64,000 nt of DNA from Streptococcus iniae (GTDB taxonomy: Bacteria > Bacillota > Bacilli > Lactobacillales > Streptococcaceae): positions 90,001 to 154,000 of the forward strand of contig NZ_CP132230.1 of NCBI RefSeq assembly GCF_030732225.1, read 5' to 3'. Below, in pieces: positions 4,341 through 64,000 of the stretch. Position 1 is the stretch's first letter, and every line of letters starts with the position of its first letter. Position numbers and translations under genes: made by a program. The notes below the pieces were generated by a model. That model was given only the letters and a program-made list of their open reading frames with translations, did no database searches and had not been told where the DNA came from.

Positions 4341-5654
4341 GATACTGTCAATAATTTTGTGTAAACACAAGAGTAGAGTTTTTGAATATTAGTCAAATAA
4401 GCTATCAAGTGTGTCAAAACATACTCCGAATCCTTTATGAATACGAGCTCCGAACTTAATGTTATAGTCTTCGAAAATACTTACAAGGCATCGTTCTAAG
4501 GCTTCTTCATTTGGAAAAACCACCCTCTTCTTGCTTTGTCGCTTGATTTCTTTATTGAGTGATTCAATCAAGTTTGTAGAGTAAATACTAGACCAAATGT
4601 GATGTGGAAATTGATAGAAAGTTAGGAGATTTTCAGTTGTTTCAAGTGATGTCATAACCTTTTTGTAACGAGGTTTCCACTCAGAAACAAATTGTTCCAA
4701 TAATTTAATAGCCTCCTGTAAATTTGTGGCACGATAAATCTGCTTGAACTGATTTAGAATAGGTGCCCTATCTACTCGTTTGACCTTACTGGAGATATTG
4801 CGACCAATGTGAACCAGACACCGTTGCTGTTTAGCCATTGGATAGGCTTGTTGGATGATTTGATCCACACCGTTAAGCCCGTCTGTAACAACTAGAGAAA
4901 CTTGCTTAAGTCCTTGATTTTGTAGCCTCTTAAGAAGATCTGACCAAGAGACATTATTTTCATTAGGGGCAATCTCATAGCCAAGAACTGATTTATACCC
5001 TTCAGGCGTGATACCAAGTGCAATGTGAATACATTCTTTACTGACCGTACCTCGTCGCAAGGGTAAGTAAGTTCCGTCTAGATACAAGACTGAGTAGTTA
5101 GTTTGAAAGGAACGCTCATGAAAGGCAGTGACACTTTCTTGAGTCACTTTTGTGATATTTGACACCGTTGCTGGACTGTAGTGGTGACCATACATGCGCT
5201 CAATAATGTCACTGATTTCGCGTGTCGTAACGCCAGTTTGATAGAGTTTAATCACCATCTCTTCCAAGTGGTCATCTCGTCTAGCATAAGATGGTAATAA
5301 AACTGGTGAAAACTCGCCGTTTCGATCTCTTGGAATGATTAAATTGACTAAGCCATACTTCGTTTCAAACTGTCGAGAGTAGGTCCCATTACGGCTATTA
5401 CCTGTATTGTAACCTTCTTTTTTATATGGCTCATATCCAAGGAAAGCTGATAGTTCAACCTGCAAGAGATCATTCATAGCTATTTCTAAAGAGGATCGAA
5501 AGAATTCATCAATATCTTGTTTTTGCGCTAGGAAGTTAAGTAATTCTGTGGTAAACTGAGTCATGGGAATAAATCTCTTTCTAGTGAAGTGTCGTAACTC
5601 TACTATACAGGATTTATTCCTTTTTTGTGTTTACACAAGATATTTTACACTACC
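4341..5654 (-). mobile_element. IS256-family insertion sequence, copy A (1314 bp)
   Basis: The element runs from GATACTGTCAATAAT at 4341 to the complement of GGTAGTGTAAAATAT at 5654. The 30-bp terminal inverted repeats match at 24 of 30 positions and share the inner palindrome TTGTGTAAACACAA. It is flanked by an 8-bp direct repeat ATAATAAG at 4333-4340 and 5655-5662, the duplication length expected for IS256-type transposition. It has the same length as copy B at 9437-10750, the two transposases are identical, and the orientation is opposite. Confidence 0.9.
4389..5564 (-). CDS. IS256-family (Mutator-type DDE) transposase, copy A
   Basis: A 391-residue transposase, full length for the family, moving the surrounding element by a cut-and-paste or copy mechanism. 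DDE acidic residues are visible in the expected contexts: LYLDGTYLPLR (first Asp), LVVTDGLNGVDQ (second Asp) and SLNKEIKR near the C-terminus (Glu). The N-terminal portion carries the family's characteristic segment ending in LLQVELSAFLGYEPYKK. The encoded protein is identical to copy B. No frameshift or stop is present, so it should be active. Confidence 0.93.
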   Translation of the reverse strand: MTQFTTELLNFLAQKQDIDEFFRSSLEIAMNDLLQVELSAFLGYEPYKKEGYNTGNSRNGTYSRQFETKYGLVNLIIPRDRNGEFSPVLLPSYARRDDHLEEMVIKLYQTGVTTREISDIIERMYGHHYSPATVSNITKVTQESVTAFHERSFQTNYSVLYLDGTYLPLRRGTVSKECIHIALGITPEGYKSVLGYEIAPNENNVSWSDLLKRLQNQGLKQVSLVVTDGLNGVDQIIQQAYPMAKQQRCLVHIGRNISSKVKRVDRAPILNQFKQIYRATNLQEAIKLLEQFVSEWKPRYKKVMTSLETTENLLTFYQFPHHIWSSIYSTNLIESLNKEIKRQSKKRVVFPNEEALERCLVSIFEDYNIKFGARIHKGFGVCFDTLDSLFD

Positions 5655-9436: not shown

Positions 9437-10750
9437 GGTAGTGTAAAATATCTTGTGTAAACACAAAAAAGGAATAAATCCTGTATAGTAGAGTTACGAC
9501 ACTTCACTAGAAAGAGATTTATTCCCATGACTCAGTTTACCACAGAATTACTTAACTTCCTAGCGCAAAAACAAGATATTGATGAATTCTTTCGATCCTC
9601 TTTAGAAATAGCTATGAATGATCTCTTGCAGGTTGAACTATCAGCTTTCCTTGGATATGAGCCATATAAAAAAGAAGGTTACAATACAGGTAATAGCCGT
9701 AATGGGACCTACTCTCGACAGTTTGAAACGAAGTATGGCTTAGTCAATTTAATCATTCCAAGAGATCGAAACGGCGAGTTTTCACCAGTTTTATTACCAT
9801 CTTATGCTAGACGAGATGACCACTTGGAAGAGATGGTGATTAAACTCTATCAAACTGGCGTTACGACACGCGAAATCAGTGACATTATTGAGCGCATGTA
9901 TGGTCACCACTACAGTCCAGCAACGGTGTCAAATATCACAAAAGTGACTCAAGAAAGTGTCACTGCCTTTCATGAGCGTTCCTTTCAAACTAACTACTCA
10001 GTCTTGTATCTAGACGGAACTTACTTACCCTTGCGACGAGGTACGGTCAGTAAAGAATGTATTCACATTGCACTTGGTATCACGCCTGAAGGGTATAAAT
10101 CAGTTCTTGGCTATGAGATTGCCCCTAATGAAAATAATGTCTCTTGGTCAGATCTTCTTAAGAGGCTACAAAATCAAGGACTTAAGCAAGTTTCTCTAGT
10201 TGTTACAGACGGGCTTAACGGTGTGGATCAAATCATCCAACAAGCCTATCCAATGGCTAAACAGCAACGGTGTCTGGTTCACATTGGTCGCAATATCTCC
10301 AGTAAGGTCAAACGAGTAGATAGGGCACCTATTCTAAATCAGTTCAAGCAGATTTATCGTGCCACAAATTTACAGGAGGCTATTAAATTATTGGAACAAT
10401 TTGTTTCTGAGTGGAAACCTCGTTACAAAAAGGTTATGACATCACTTGAAACAACTGAAAATCTCCTAACTTTCTATCAATTTCCACATCACATTTGGTC
10501 TAGTATTTACTCTACAAACTTGATTGAATCACTCAATAAAGAAATCAAGCGACAAAGCAAGAAGAGGGTGGTTTTTCCAAATGAAGAAGCCTTAGAACGA
10601 TGCCTTGTAAGTATTTTCGAAGACTATAACATTAAGTTCGGAGCTCGTATTCATAAAGGATTCGGAGTATGTTTTGACACACTTGATAGCTTATTTGACT
10701 AATATTCAAAAACTCTACTCTTGTGTTTACACAAAATTATTGACAGTATC
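9437..10750 (+). mobile_element. IS256-family insertion sequence, copy B (1314 bp)
   Basis: Starts GGTAGTGTAAAATAT at 9437 and ends with the complement of GATACTGTCAATAAT at 10750, the mirror image of copy A. Its own 8-bp target duplication CTCTCTTT is intact on both sides (9429-9436, 10751-10758), so it inserted independently rather than as the end of a composite transposon. Identical length and an identical encoded protein compared with copy A indicate very recent movement. Confidence 0.92.
9527..10702 (+). CDS. IS256-family (Mutator-type DDE) transposase, copy B
   Basis: 391 residues, identical over its whole length to the transposase at 4389-5564, with the same DDE contexts (LYLDGTYLPLR, LVVTDGLNGVDQ, SLNKEIKR). 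An AGAAAGAG-type ribosome site lies upstream of the ATG. The gene is intact and reads away from the adhesin, towards the ABC transporter remnant. Because the element sits in the adhesin terminator, read-through from the surface-protein gene could enter it. Confidence 0.93.
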   Translation: MTQFTTELLNFLAQKQDIDEFFRSSLEIAMNDLLQVELSAFLGYEPYKKEGYNTGNSRNGTYSRQFETKYGLVNLIIPRDRNGEFSPVLLPSYARRDDHLEEMVIKLYQTGVTTREISDIIERMYGHHYSPATVSNITKVTQESVTAFHERSFQTNYSVLYLDGTYLPLRRGTVSKECIHIALGITPEGYKSVLGYEIAPNENNVSWSDLLKRLQNQGLKQVSLVVTDGLNGVDQIIQQAYPMAKQQRCLVHIGRNISSKVKRVDRAPILNQFKQIYRATNLQEAIKLLEQFVSEWKPRYKKVMTSLETTENLLTFYQFPHHIWSSIYSTNLIESLNKEIKRQSKKRVVFPNEEALERCLVSIFEDYNIKFGARIHKGFGVCFDTLDSLFD

Positions 10751-40356: not shown

Positions 40357-40490
40357 TTGATTTTCACGAAAAAATAGTGTATAATATTGGTAACTATTTG
40401 TCGTCTAATCTAGTTGAAATATTGTCCAACTAGACAGAACAGCAGTTAAATCATACTGATACAGTCAGATTTAGCTGCTCTTTTTGTGCC
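40357..40490 (+). promoter_or_regulatory. rpoB promoter and structured leader (candidate Lacto-rpoB element/attenuator)
   Basis: TTGATT (40357-40362), 17 bp, TATAAT (40380-40385). The leader contains two hairpins: TCTAGTTG/CAACTAGA (40409-40416, 40427-40434) and AGCAGTTAAATC/GATTTAGCTGCT (40441-40452, 40468-40479), the latter followed by C and five Ts like a terminator. A conserved leader upstream of rpoB in Lactobacillales (Lacto-rpoB) has been described; identity with it is inferred from position and lineage. Confidence 0.6.
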
Positions 40491-60015: not shown

Positions 60016-60138
60016 AAAATAAATTTTTTAACCATTGATTGCTTTATAAATGGCCTTAAATCAGTCTTTTTGAGAAAGATTCATTGTCAGAAAATTGCCA
60101 AAAAACAAAAAATAAGAGAATTTTCCAAGAAGAAAGGC

Positions 60139-60167
60139 TTGACACCCTCATTGAAATACATTATAAT
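60139..60167 (+). promoter_or_regulatory. Promoter of the ABC uptake operon
   Basis: TTGACA (60139-60144), 17-bp spacer, TATAAT (60162-60167): a full consensus sigma-A promoter. Transcription from about 60174 yields a leader of roughly 315 bases before the first transporter gene. Confidence 0.9.
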
Positions 60168-60205
60168 TTAAAAAAATTAAATCAAAAGGAATTGGAGGTG
60201 CTGGC

Positions 60206-60268
60206 ATGATACTGGTAAGCACAGCTCAAAACTTGAATAAGCGTTATTACTTTAGCTTCTTTAGATAG
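60206..60268 (+). CDS. Leader peptide rich in Tyr/Phe (20 aa)
   Basis: ATG 60206 is preceded by a strong TTGGAGG seven bases upstream. The peptide reads MILVSTAQNLNKRYYFSFFR and stops at TAG 60266-60268. Five of the last seven residues are aromatic (codons TAT TAC TTT AGC TTC TTT), the composition expected of a leader that senses charged tRNA-Tyr and tRNA-Phe. Its 3' codons are complementary to RNA 60 bases downstream (see the attenuator entry). The coding capacity is seen directly; expression and sensing are inferred. It was found by reading the leader and is too short for ordinary gene finders. Confidence 0.75.
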   Translation: MILVSTAQNLNKRYYFSFFR

Positions 60269-60461
60269 TGTTTGTAGTCATGGCAATCATGGATACAAAC
60301 ACGTTGAACGTTAAGTTTGTATCTATGAGGCTAAGGACTTTTTGAGTTGTTTGTCCACATAGATAGTAAGAATATCTAAGTGGACGCCATACAGCACCTT
60401 TTTATTAGTGTAGTGTATTTGTGTAAGACCATTTAGATAGATTCTAAATGGTCTTATTTTT
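60251..60461 (+). promoter_or_regulatory. Relay-type transcription attenuator with six alternately pairing segments
   Basis: S1 (60252-60267, end of the leader peptide) pairs with S2 (60320-60334): TAGATA/TATCTA plus TTAGCTTC/GAGGCTAA. S2 (TATCTATG, 60320-60327) pairs with S3 (CATAGATA, 60358-60365). S3 (GTCCAC..TAGATA) pairs with S4 (TATCTA..GTGGAC, 60373-60385). S4 (TATCTAAGTGG) pairs with S5 (CCATTTAGATA, 60429-60439, one G-U). S5 and S6 form the terminator. Free translation gives S1:S2, S3:S4, S5:S6, hence termination; a stalled ribosome covering S1 gives S2:S3, S4:S5, hence read-through. Confidence 0.7.
60425..60461 (+). terminator. Attenuator terminator before the transporter genes
   Basis: AAGACCATTTAGA (60425-60437) and TCTAAATGGTCTT (60443-60455) form a perfect 13-bp stem with a 5-nt loop, followed by ATTTTT. 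It lies 28 bases before the first structural gene and downstream of its promoter, so it must be conditional. Confidence 0.92.
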
Positions 60462-60488
60462 GTGTTTGAAAAGAAAAGAGGAAAAGTG

Positions 60489-61451
60489 ATGAAAAAGAAA
60501 CGTCTGATGTTAGCAGTATTAACAGCCTTTATGGTGCTACCTTTGGTAGCTTGTCGTAAAGAAGGAGTCGCTGATAACAGCAAGGTCTCTATTGGGATTA
60601 TGCAATATGCAGAACACCCAGCTCTAGACAGTGCTCGTGAGGGCTTTATGGAAGCCTTAGCAGAAGGAGGCTACAAAGAAGGAAAGAACTTAAAAGTCAC
60701 TCTCAAAAATGCCCAAGGAGAACAATCTAACCTCCAAACCATGGTAGAACAATTAGCCGGGAAAAATAATCTTAATTTTGCCATTGCAACGCCAGCAGCG
60801 CAAGCCCTGTTAAACACGGATCCGGAGACGCCAGCAGTTTTTACAGCAGTCACTGATCCTCTTGCGGCAGGCTTGGCTAATTCTTTCCGTAAACCAGGAA
60901 AGAACATGACAGGTTCTATTGATGCAACAGAAGTTTCAGATCAAATTGACCTCCTCATCAAGGTAGTGCCAAAGGCTAAGAGGGTCGGCATTTTTTACAA
61001 CTCCAGTGAAGTCAACTCTGAAGTGCAAGCTAAGGCAGCGCGTAAAGTCCTTGAGAAAAAAGGAATGAAAGTCGTTGAAAAAACAGTAACAACAAGTAAT
61101 GATGTGCAACAAGTAATGACCAGTCTAGCTAGTCAAGTTGACGCGGTTTACTTGCCAACAGACAACACCGTAGCCTCAACAGCAACAACCATTGGTCAAG
61201 TTCTAAAAGATGCCAAAGTCCCAGCTCTAGGCAGTGATGAAGCTTACCTGCAAGCAACCTTATTAACATCAGGAGTGGATTTCAAGGCTATTGGAAAATC
61301 AGCCGGCAAACAGGCCCTAGCCATTCTCAAAGGGGAAAAAGCAAGCGACCTGGCTATTGTGAAACCCCAAAAACCACTTATTGCAATCAATGAAGATATG
61401 GCTAAAAGCCTTGGCAGGAATGTAGCTGAGCTAAAAGCCCTCGTGAAATAG
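60489..61451 (+). CDS. ABC transporter substrate-binding lipoprotein 1 (TrpX-like, PF04392 type)
   Basis: 320 residues from ATG 60489 behind AGAGGAAAAG. The signal peptide ends in the lipobox LVAC (lipid-anchored Cys22). The mature part shows the family's pattern: VSIGIMQYAEHPALDSAREG, YKEGKNLKVTLKNAQGEQS, FAIATPAAQALL, VYLPTDNTVAST and a C-terminal hinge region. Relatives in streptococci are assigned to aromatic amino acid uptake (TrpXYZ). It is the first of two tandem paralogs, so ligand choice may differ between them. The leader peptide suggests tyrosine or phenylalanine. Confidence 0.88.
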   Translation: MKKKRLMLAVLTAFMVLPLVACRKEGVADNSKVSIGIMQYAEHPALDSAREGFMEALAEGGYKEGKNLKVTLKNAQGEQSNLQTMVEQLAGKNNLNFAIATPAAQALLNTDPETPAVFTAVTDPLAAGLANSFRKPGKNMTGSIDATEVSDQIDLLIKVVPKAKRVGIFYNSSEVNSEVQAKAARKVLEKKGMKVVEKTVTTSNDVQQVMTSLASQVDAVYLPTDNTVASTATTIGQVLKDAKVPALGSDEAYLQATLLTSGVDFKAIGKSAGKQALAILKGEKASDLAIVKPQKPLIAINEDMAKSLGRNVAELKALVK

Positions 61452-62436: not shown

Positions 62437-63321
62437 ATGACACTCATTCTATCAAGCTTATCACAGGGCCTACTTTGGTCAGTTATGGCCATTGGGGTTT
62501 ACATCACCTTTAGGATATTGGATATAGCTGATTTGACAGCAGAAGGGTCTTACCCTCTTGGCGCAGCCATTTGTGCTACAGGAATTGTATCAGGCGTAAA
62601 TCCGCTTCTTGCCACGCTAATGGCCTTTGGTGGAGGCTTGCTTGCAGGTTTAATCTCTGGTTTCATCCATACCAAACTTAAAATTCCCGCTCTCTTAACA
62701 GGGATTGTCACACTGACTGGACTGTACTCTATTAATTTAAAAGTACTGGGTAAGGCTAACGTGGCTCTCTTAGGGCAAAAGACCTTAGTCACACAACTTT
62801 ACGACCTAGGCTTCACAAAACTGGCTGCCGTCATTATCTTGGGTGTGCTTGTCACCTTAATTGTGATTCTTTTACTCACTCTCTTAATGAAGACGCAAAT
62901 TGGTTTAGCTCTGCGATCTACCGGAGATAATATCCCTATGAGTGCTTCTAACGGTATTGACACCGACAAAATGAAGATTTTGGGCTACATGATTTCAAAT
63001 GGCTTGATTGCGCTTTGTGGGGCGCTTCTTAGTCAAAATAATGGCTATGCTGATTTGAACTCTGGTGTTGGAACAATTGTTATTGGTCTTGCTTCAATCA
63101 TCATTGCTGAAGTGGTTATCCCTAACCTATCAATTGGTTGGCGCTTGTTATCCATTGTGCTTGGATCCATCATTTACAGACTGATTATCTTAGCAATTTT
63201 ATCTATTCCAGGGATGGATGCTGACTTGGTTAAACTCTTCTCAGCTATTCTACTTGCGACAGTTCTCTTTGTTCCAGAACTACAGAAAAAGTTAAACATT
63301 CACAAGCCCAAATTAGAATAG
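62437..63321 (+). CDS. ABC transporter permease of the aromatic amino acid-like uptake system
   Basis: 294 residues of the BPD_transp_2 (LIV-type) permease family, with eight or more hydrophobic helices. The loop LALRSTGDNIPMSASNGIDT is the conserved ATPase-contact segment. It starts nine bases after the second binding protein with AAGGAGA upstream. One permease gene suggests a homodimer. It corresponds to TrpY in TrpXYZ-type systems; the substrate is inferred, not shown. Confidence 0.9.
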   Translation: MTLILSSLSQGLLWSVMAIGVYITFRILDIADLTAEGSYPLGAAICATGIVSGVNPLLATLMAFGGGLLAGLISGFIHTKLKIPALLTGIVTLTGLYSINLKVLGKANVALLGQKTLVTQLYDLGFTKLAAVIILGVLVTLIVILLLTLLMKTQIGLALRSTGDNIPMSASNGIDTDKMKILGYMISNGLIALCGALLSQNNGYADLNSGVGTIVIGLASIIIAEVVIPNLSIGWRLLSIVLGSIIYRLIILAILSIPGMDADLVKLFSAILLATVLFVPELQKKLNIHKPKLE

Positions 63322-63329
63322 GAGTTATT

Positions 63330-64000
63330 ATGTCACCATTATTAGCATTACAAGAGATTCATAAAGTTTTTGAAGCAGGAACTGTCAATGAGAACCATGT
63401 CCTTAGAGGGCTCTCTTTAGACGTGGAAGAAGGAGACTTCATCTCAATTATCGGAGGAAACGGCGCCGGCAAATCAACCTTGATGAACACACTAGCAGGC
63501 ACACTAAGCATCGATTCAGGCGACATCTTACTGGAAGGAAAGTCCATTAAAAACCTCTCTGCCAACAAACGAGCTCGTGACATTAGCCGTGTTTTTCAAG
63601 ATCCCAAAATGGGAACAGCTTCGCGCTTAAGCATTGAAGAAAACATGGCCATTGCTTACCGTCGTGGAAAAAAACGTGGACTTGGCTGGGGCGTTAAAGA
63701 AGAGGACCGCAAAGTATTTCAAGAGTCACTGAAAGAATTAGGATTGCATTTAGAGAATCGCCTCAAGGTTGATACTCAGTTCCTATCAGGTGGACAACGG
63801 CAAGCTTTGACGCTGCTTATGGCTTCGCTAGAAAAACCAAAGGTCTTGTTGCTTGACGAACACACAGCAGCCTTAGATCCCAAAACCAGTGATATGGTCA
63901 TGCAATTAACAGATAAAATAGTTAAGAATCACCAGCTGACAACTCTTATGATCACACATAACATGGAAAATGCAATTGCATATGGTAATAGACTTGTGAT
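63330..64000 (+). CDS. ABC transporter ATPase of the uptake system (partial, cut by right edge)
   Basis: Starts MSPLLALQEIHKVFEAGTVN at ATG 63330 behind AGGAG; the frame is open to the window end (223 codons). Walker A is GGNGAGKSTLM, the signature is LSGGQRQALTL and Walker B is VLLLDEHTAALDP, where the usual DEP reads DEH, followed by the switch His in ITHN. It powers the permease immediately upstream; only the last few tens of residues should be missing. Confidence 0.92.
   Translation, partial: MSPLLALQEIHKVFEAGTVNENHVLRGLSLDVEEGDFISIIGGNGAGKSTLMNTLAGTLSIDSGDILLEGKSIKNLSANKRARDISRVFQDPKMGTASRLSIEENMAIAYRRGKKRGLGWGVKEEDRKVFQESLKELGLHLENRLKVDTQFLSGGQRQALTLLMASLEKPKVLLLDEHTAALDPKTSDMVMQLTDKIVKNHQLTTLMITHNMENAIAYGNRLV

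Follow-up and report, generated by a model that had tools for sequence, protein, structure and literature searches.

The 64,000-nucleotide stretch of DNA analysed here (the window), part of the 2.18 Mb genome of Streptococcus iniae, carries an operon for an ATP-binding cassette (ABC) uptake system, preceded by a promoter, a short open reading frame (ORF) with tyrosine and phenylalanine codons, and a series of RNA segments able to pair with one another in alternative ways. This arrangement raises the question of what the leader senses and how it would act on the transporter genes behind it. The answer that we favour, with a probability of roughly 0.86, is that the element is a ribosome-mediated transcription attenuator which measures charged tRNA-Tyr and tRNA-Phe. 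The locus combines an ORF having a ribosome site, cognate codons, mutually exclusive helices with an intrinsic terminator, and a switch that follows ribosome position in silico. The basis computed here comprises the ORF, codon conservation, the helices and their co-variation, the match between leader codons and transporter pocket, and folding under ribosome masks, from which we infer the transcription start, in vivo translation, stalling, the identity of the sensed tRNA, and termination in S. iniae.

Conservation of the leader peptide and of its codons

The initial annotation of this region had described a consensus promoter, a ribosome site and a 20-codon peptide, all of which are present as described (Table 1); a TTGACA hexamer also lies at the equivalent place in those streptococcal leaders that were inspected, and a further in-frame UAG is located past the leader ORF at 60275-60277. 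In the search for relatives within Streptococcus, 284 genomes were covered and 159 gave a match, the best 61 of which (orthologues of binding protein 1 of the operon, one per genome) were retained, with roughly 510-1,020 bases being read upstream of each gene. The leader precedes 60 of these 61 orthologues: 58 were recognised by a core pattern, to which are added L060, where the leader is positioned about 0.9 kb upstream with its first stop altered and the second in-frame stop used, and L142, where it stands before the tandem copy that precedes L047 in its genome. Among other Lactobacillales, 54 regions were picked from the matches so as to spread over genera, and 53 of them contain the leader (52 by the core pattern with an in-frame start, and L140 with one Leu). 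An in-frame start is found in all 69 leader cores outside the streptococcal set, 73 having been tried, four of which (L011, L123, L140 and L146) do not match the pattern. Thirteen of 18 named loci possess a leader, ten being of the Tyr/Phe type (S. bovimastitidis, S. gallinaceus, five Lacticaseibacillus, two loci in one Atopobacter and one Enterococcus) and three of the Trp type, these last being of the E. cecorum type AWRFWRR; the ORF filter returned none in Neobacillus, Ignatzschineria, or metagenome-assembled genomes (MAGs) from Clostridiales, a gammaproteobacterium and Geobacteraceae. Judged by this comparison among relatives, the leader is a real, conserved element and no accident.

Tyr or Phe occupies aromatic positions 1, 2, 3, 5 and 6 in 119, 118, 121, 121 and 121 of 121 leaders, respectively, these leaders having been found via aromatic patterns (the unselected figures are the 58/61 and 52/54 given above), and the two residues interchange at the aromatic codons. 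Position 4 is Ser or Gly in 121/121, which is partly built into the search pattern, and is encoded by AGC, GGC and AGT only, the unbiased sample for these codons being the 56 streptococcal leaders found at the peptide level. Position 7 is Arg or Gly in 116/121 (AGA, GGA and AGG), the remainder being four TAG and one ATA. Both positions are restricted to codons that keep segment A1, which contains the aromatic codons, paired with segment C. A peptide end of such striking constancy would also be compatible with a nascent-peptide arrest sensor, in which the conserved C-terminal peptide stalls the ribosome in response to a free aromatic amino acid or a drug. However, the lack of other Ser or Arg codons at positions 4 and 7 is what would be expected if the A1:C helix, and not the peptide, is selected, Tyr and Phe interchange within the peptide, and a Trp version of the leader (see below) retains the same RNA logic with other residues; peptide arrest is for these reasons regarded as very improbable compared with an attenuator that is read through its codons.

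The length of the leader and its distance from the gene vary. In L060, L094, L095, L102, L105, L108 and others, the first stop is lost and the leader extends to the in-frame UAG inside segment A2, ending in RNCL, RSCL, RCCL or RWCL; by position, segment B would still be uncovered. In some streptococci (L037, L039, L043, L049, L060, L062 and L066), about 140-700 additional bases separate the terminator from the gene, the leader being located about 380-940 bases ahead of it.

Competing helices and the position of the ribosome

The region 60206-60460 folds at -87.5 kcal/mol as compared to -53.3 +/- 4.2 kcal/mol for 200 dinucleotide shuffles (z -8.1). The five alternating helices of the initial annotation, there termed S1 to S6, are all recovered, namely S1:S2 (A1:C in the present nomenclature; 16 pairs, duplex energy -17.7 kcal/mol), S2:S3 (C:D; eight perfect pairs plus two past a mismatch, -11.0 kcal/mol), S3:S4 (D:E; 12 pairs with one mismatch, -17.0 kcal/mol), S4:S5 (E:F; 11 pairs, -13.8 kcal/mol), and the S5:S6 terminator (F:G; 15 pairs over 60423-60457, -20.2 kcal/mol). 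Two further helices complete the chain: A2 (60268-60282), which is absent from that list, pairs with B (60288-60302) over 13 pairs, and B pairs with C over 13 pairs (60288-60300/60315-60327). The 9-bp hairpin 60292-60300/60315-60323, previously presented as a further competitor for S2, does exist, but it is the inner part of B:C and thereby the 'off' alternative rather than a mere competitor.

Three global structures were scored on 56 distinct streptococcal leaders. A1:C + A2:B + D:E + F:G has 94.8% of cells paired, with 109 double-change cells versus 32.6 when shuffled; for B:C + D:E + F:G the values are 93.2% and 65 versus 21.9, and for A2:B + C:D + E:F they are 96.1% and 23 versus 11.8, while shifting the partner by 1-3 columns lowers pairing to 24-53%. 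In the same leaders A1:C is paired in 99.6% of cells, with double changes at four pairs; the frequent ones affect 60252, 60253 and 60258, these being the bases that decide whether codon 16 reads TTT or TAC and codon 18 TTC or TAC, so that Phe/Tyr codon changes are matched by compensatory changes which keep A1:C paired. A2:B and B:C are paired in 98.8% and 99.9% of cells, respectively. A swap test, in which the duplex energy of a species' own segments is compared with that of swapped segments, supports A1:C, D:E, E:F and F:G within Streptococcus (z -6.6 to -8.8).

Considering that B and C hardly vary within the genus because each has two or three partners, leaders were aligned across genera (65 distinct leaders, 63 of them from outside Streptococcus, with A2, B and C distinct in 60 of the 65). 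On these 60 leaders the same test gives z values of -11.5 for A1:C, -15.4 for A2:B (the strongest), -8.8 for B:C, -5.7 for C:D and -11.0 for D:E, as opposed to +1.6 to -1.8 for four non-cognate control pairs. A terminator behind E was found in 55 of the 65 leaders, and the 52 distinct ones yield z -10.3 for E:F and -22.6 for F:G, with -0.2 for the control D:F; E:F reaches -6 kcal/mol or better in 43 of the 52. For E. cecorum and Lacticaseibacillus a relay with fewer segments had been envisaged, but scanning revealed a separate terminator farther down in each. On the strength of this alignment, the six-step chain extends beyond Streptococcus. The covariation and codon-conservation check proposed with the initial annotation turned out in its favour, in streptococcal relatives and beyond: relatives retain the aromatic codons, and compensatory changes occur in the alternate helices. 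A hairpin sequestering the Shine-Dalgarno sequence (CAGTT/AACTG), hinted at by some leaders, was present in 7/69 only and was dropped.

In the mechanism that we propose, RNA polymerase would initiate at about 60174 and a ribosome would trail it along the leader ORF. Under a shortage of Tyr or Phe, the ribosome would stall at codons 14-16, masking A1 and leaving A2 free, which would permit A2:B and hence C:D and E:F; with F occupied, the transporter operon would be transcribed. When aromatic residues are ample, the ribosome would reach the UAG and cover A2 (leading edge at about 60278), so that B:C, D:E and F:G would form and transcription would stop near 60460. If no ribosome is present, A1:C would enclose an intact A2:B hairpin, D would be freed for E, and termination would follow. 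A1 may consequently serve both as the set of sensing codons and as a fail-safe clamp.

These states were modelled by folding the nascent chain to 60440 (F complete, G not yet made), the leading edge of the ribosome being placed at the P-site + 15. For the window, the E:F probability amounts to 0.65, 0.68 and 0.83 for a ribosome halted at codon 14, 15 or 16, respectively, 0.15 with the ribosome at the stop, and 0.00 without a ribosome. Averaged over 56 leaders, it is 0.87 at codon 16, 0.73 at codon 18, 0.42 at codon 19, 0.34 at the stop and 0.34 in the free state; it exceeds 0.5 in 51/56 leaders with a stall at codon 16, and the stall at 16 surpasses the stop by at least 0.1 in 45/56 and the free state in 43/56. 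In silico, ribosome position thus selects terminator or antiterminator in the window and in 45/56 leaders.

The same calculations bear on the parity as it was first written, according to which S1:S2 alone decides and a stalled ribosome masks S1, allowing S2:S3 and then S4:S5. S1:S2 is indeed real and strongly co-varying, and the chain's later half had been described correctly. However, masking A2 along with A1 lets B:C form and lowers E:F to 0.15 in the window, mean E:F over the 56 leaders is 0.34 with A2 masked versus 0.87 with A2 free, and A2:B is conserved across genera. Because A2 is absent from that scheme and B would take C once A1 is masked, its chain would run the wrong way, S3 being freed and termination resulting, and a decision by S1:S2 alone is considered improbable in the extreme, if marginally less so than peptide arrest. 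The supported parts of the initial annotation are the translated aromatic leader and the mutually exclusive helices ending in a terminator ahead of an ABC uptake operon; its observation was accurate and its mechanism right in outline, but wrong in one essential part, A2 having been overlooked.

Several results weigh against a ribosome-mediated attenuator of this design. In the window, E:F is 0.17 and 0.15 at codons 18 and 19, i.e. 'off'; 5/56 leaders do not exceed 0.5 even with a stall at codon 16, and 19/56 are 'on' with the ribosome at the stop, as are 19/56 without a ribosome. The folding is an equilibrium calculation whose outcome depends on the chosen chain end: if the nascent chain is cut at 60388 or 60460, 'off' wins even when the ribosome is stalled, and therefore the real decision must be kinetic. 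Within Streptococcus, C:D is without co-variation support (z +2.6), relatedness pushes z to -3.7 and -4.1 in two control pairs, and A2:B (-3.1) and B:C (-4.1) do no better than these controls, so that the case for both helices comes from the cross-genus set; none of the shuffles takes relatedness into account. Across genera, E:F is weaker than -6 kcal/mol in 9/52 leaders and the script detected no terminator in 10/65. Lastly, the streptococcal copy L040 has a leader decayed to a remnant, its genome carrying an intact leader before another copy (L143), and no leader was seen in L123, one of the 54 non-streptococcal Lactobacillales regions.

Table 1 Features of the leader and of the operon behind it (coordinates in the window)
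Feature	Coordinates	Strand	Remarks
Promoter TTGACA-N17-TATAAT	60139..60167	+	perfect sigma-70; consensus bases 12/12
Leader-peptide ribosome binding site GGAGGT	60194..60199	+	sequence reading
Leader peptide ORF, 20 codons, MILVSTAQNLNKRYYFSFFR	60206..60268	+	UAG stop at 60266; conceptual translation; conserved in 60/61 streptococcal orthologues
A1 (S1, slightly extended)	60250..60267	+	aromatic codons and stop; partner of C
A2 (absent from the S1-S6 list)	60268..60282	+	partner of B
B	60288..60302	+	partner of A2 or C
C (includes S2)	60315..60336	+	partner of B, A1 or D
D (S3)	60353..60365	+	partner of C or E
E (S4)	60373..60385	+	partner of D or F
F (S5), terminator 5' arm	60423..60439	+	partner of E (antiterminator) or G
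G (S6), terminator 3' arm and U tract	60441..60463	+	
Substrate-binding lipoprotein 1, PF04392	60489..61451	+	nearest solved structure 6hni
Substrate-binding lipoprotein 2, PF04392	61465..62427	+	
Permease, BPD_transp_2	62437..63321	+	
ATPase	63330..63998	+	continues past window end

Leader codons and transporter pockets

The structure nearest to binding protein 1, 6hni, is that of Clostridioides difficile CD0873, which binds tyrosine, its Glu263 holding the hydroxyl and its Tyr279 keeping out Trp; SP1069, with Gln284 at the Trp-excluding position, binds Trp, and VC_1101, with an Ala + Tyr pocket, binds Phe (PMC6816091; this and the papers cited below are drawn upon for parts of their text). 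The corresponding residues are Asp/Phe in binding protein 1 and Ser/Tyr in binding protein 2. Because of the Asp/Phe at the two ligand-selecting positions, binding protein 1 probably binds tyrosine. The gene cluster behind the leader probably imports tyrosine or phenylalanine. In six genomes (G175, G181, G182, G231, G269 and G278), the binding protein is contained in an open frame of 650-690 amino acids, perhaps a fused tandem pair.

The same S. iniae genome possesses a second, Trp-codon leader, MTQQTLSITWQSWHR (WQSWHR; L146, G000:C1:804360-804496), which was found as a weak second match to Rfam family RF02863 and precedes a third TrpX-type operon, the binding protein of which has a Val/Gln pocket. 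Similar WQSWHR-like leaders stand before 29 of the 30 top-scoring orthologues of this third binding protein in streptococci, and under ribosome masks the Trp leader of L146 behaves as the same switch with fewer segments. Leader codons match the residue at pocket position 2 in all 91 loci compared, Trp leaders occurring with Gln in 39/39 and Tyr/Phe leaders with Tyr or Phe in 52/52. These counts use position 2 only, the motif-based reading of position 1 (the Glu263 equivalent) having failed in 43 sequences; they omit L017, L040, L047 and L205 as well as loci where no protein could be read. L004 and L101 are one locus, and as the loci are related, the p value of a Fisher test cannot be taken as a probability. 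The all-Phe leader FFFGFFG, at the two readable loci (L003 and L005), accompanies an Ala/Tyr pocket such as that of the Phe binder.

In other genera, the Tyr/Phe leader is also located before aroE-like and DAHP-synthase-like genes, in two sets of seven loci, these genes being named from their translations (Pfam was run for L168 only); NRFYFSYF leaders precede DAHP-synthase-like genes at L226, L228 and L229. The leader was likewise present in all six loci inspected (L225, L227, L230, L232, L233 and L237) of ten that the ORF filter had bypassed.

Relation to Rfam families and to described attenuators

Between 60.1 and 60.5 kb of the window, all Rfam families stay below their cut-offs. RF02863 (sRNA_2410) matches 60252-60432, beginning inside the leader ORF, at 51.8 bits (E 9.8e-8) against a cut-off of 61, and the window element is thus a homologue but not a formal member of this family; four of seven loci (leaders L009, L111, L112 and L116) score 87-123 bits and exceed the cut-off. 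RF02863 was matched in 149/295 Lactobacillales genomes (71 above cut-off), in 23/250 genomes of the class (five outside the order), and in 0/14 control genomes at E 1e-4, not all of these matches having been read; at E up to 1, one of the 14 controls, Sulfolobus acidocaldarius, gives a match below cut-off. A match above cut-off (L011:5273-5448) is positioned downstream of the E. cecorum binding-protein gene.

The RNA underlying RF02863, from E. faecium, was detected by RNA-seq (195 nt in the RNA-seq table) and by Northern blot (two transcripts), and it is homologous to the present element but treated as a small RNA (sRNA) by its source paper (PMC5593968), in the main text of which neither 'leader' nor 'attenuat' occurs. 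On a Northern blot, though, a terminated leader would give the same picture, and at those RF02863 loci where the downstream gene was read, a binding-protein, aroE-like or DAHP-synthase-like gene follows, the loci ending in a terminator that E:F can undo. A trans-acting sRNA is accordingly a most improbable account of the element, which may nevertheless have a secondary role in trans.

The Trp version belongs to RF04312 (trpB motif, SRC-39-1): L146 scores 66.9 bits, above the cut-off of 59, as do 6/11 WQSWHR-like streptococcal leaders that were scanned, while the window element (23.7 bits, E 0.41) is not a member. RF04312 was matched in 12/250 genomes of the class, eight above cut-off, and in Lactococcus lactis below cut-off. 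This motif has been proposed as one of ten strong riboswitch candidates, with an ABC transporter as the commonest gene behind it, as is the case here (PMC11109978), and the main text of that paper does not use the term 'leader peptide'. A rival reading of the present element is accordingly a metabolite-binding riboswitch for an aromatic amino acid. Against it, 13 of 14 RF04312 loci have a leader ORF at their start, with Trp (11), Tyr/Phe (one, L216) or His (one, L215) codons, the exception being the weak match L218; codon type follows the transporter pocket in every locus compared; and, in the cross-genus leader alignment as read, much of the conserved sequence is situated in codons or competing helices. 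The authors of the motif themselves state that a classic attenuator cannot be ruled out (PMC11109978), and we see scarcely any likelihood of a riboswitch. Two of the Trp leaders (L211 and L217) have a single Trp codon each, and L215 has four consecutive His codons before a HisZ/HisS-like gene (named from its translation only).

As in the initial annotation, in which no T-box sequence was noted, no T-box was found: none reaches the Rfam cut-off in the window, and none is among the matches to E 5 at 60100-60500. L093 and L101 carry a crude T-box-like string but no Rfam match. For trpXYZ, a Trp T-box has been reported in S. suis and S. pneumoniae, while S. pyogenes was reported to be without one (PMC9382623); that element also senses charged tRNA and controls a related Trp transporter, but binds the tRNA directly.

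The leader-peptide attenuators of Proteobacteria (trp, phe and his) resemble the present element in their translated short ORF, cognate codons, alternative hairpins and intrinsic terminator. The likeness extends to the number of segments in his, the Salmonella leader being a six-segment relay and the proteobacterial his chain having about six. In contrast, the element described here is found in Lactobacillales, has mixed Tyr/Phe codons and a longer chain from A2 to G (six consecutive alternatives), and its A1:C clamp would turn it 'off' in the absence of a ribosome, a state for which the parity of the chain by itself predicts 'on'.

Firmicutes attenuators with His codons (PMC9413887, PMC2965389) are likewise examples of Gram-positive leader-peptide attenuation, for another amino acid. 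The uORFC-13-1 motif before aroF of Acholeplasma, for which attenuation was proposed, shares a Phe-codon upstream ORF before a DAHP synthase and a terminator, but has 24 representatives from Acholeplasma and environmental sequences only, and its description, in the parts consulted, mentions neither a multi-segment relay nor Tyr codons (PMC8632094). Eleven attenuation candidates outside Rfam were reported for S. agalactiae (PMC4448216), among which the Tyr/Phe leader may be included. The suggestion that a relay of about five alternatives would be an undescribed design is unsafe in view of the six-segment his relay of Salmonella; RF02863 and RF04312 cover such RNA without naming a leader peptide, and the novelty lies elsewhere than was supposed. 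Leader-peptide attenuation is already known as a kind; the aromatic class seen here in Lactobacillales, with its relay and the breadth of its occurrence, was not found in the parts of the open-licence literature searched, a search that did not cover supplementary candidate lists (PMC4448216, PMC2965389), and the portions consulted of PMC6296669, PMC11323703, PMC9412562 and PMC3896937 contain nothing on the leader.

Taken as a whole, the observations lean towards a single modular class of ribosome-mediated attenuator running through Bacilli as a counterpart of the T-box, in which a constant RNA relay (A1, A2, B and C, leading to a terminator) would carry Tyr/Phe, Trp or His codons swapped to match the downstream transporter or pathway, the Tyr/Phe form being two relay segments longer than the streptococcal Trp form. 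This class would have been filed unrecognised under RF02863 as an sRNA and under RF04312 as a riboswitch candidate, and it may be the reason why S. pyogenes was reported to have no T-box ahead of its Trp transporter. If this is true, the Lactobacillales, whose amino-acid attenuation is mostly attributed to T-boxes, would gain a widespread ribosome-read aromatic switch that serves the shikimate pathway as well as uptake and has a Trp paralogue in the same genome. An Rfam family listed as 'sRNA' and a still open riboswitch candidate would become directly testable leader-peptide attenuators, the leader could serve as a predictor of transporter substrate, since codon swaps follow the binding pocket, and the A1:C clamp would exemplify a relay kept off without translation despite a parity that would leave it on.

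Elsewhere in the window, the Lacto-rpoB leader RNA (RF01709) is located at 40396-40453, and the Spy392987 antisense RNA (RF02592) occurs twice, at 5563-5625 (+) and 9466-9528 (-), about 4 kb apart and with 97.5 bits each.

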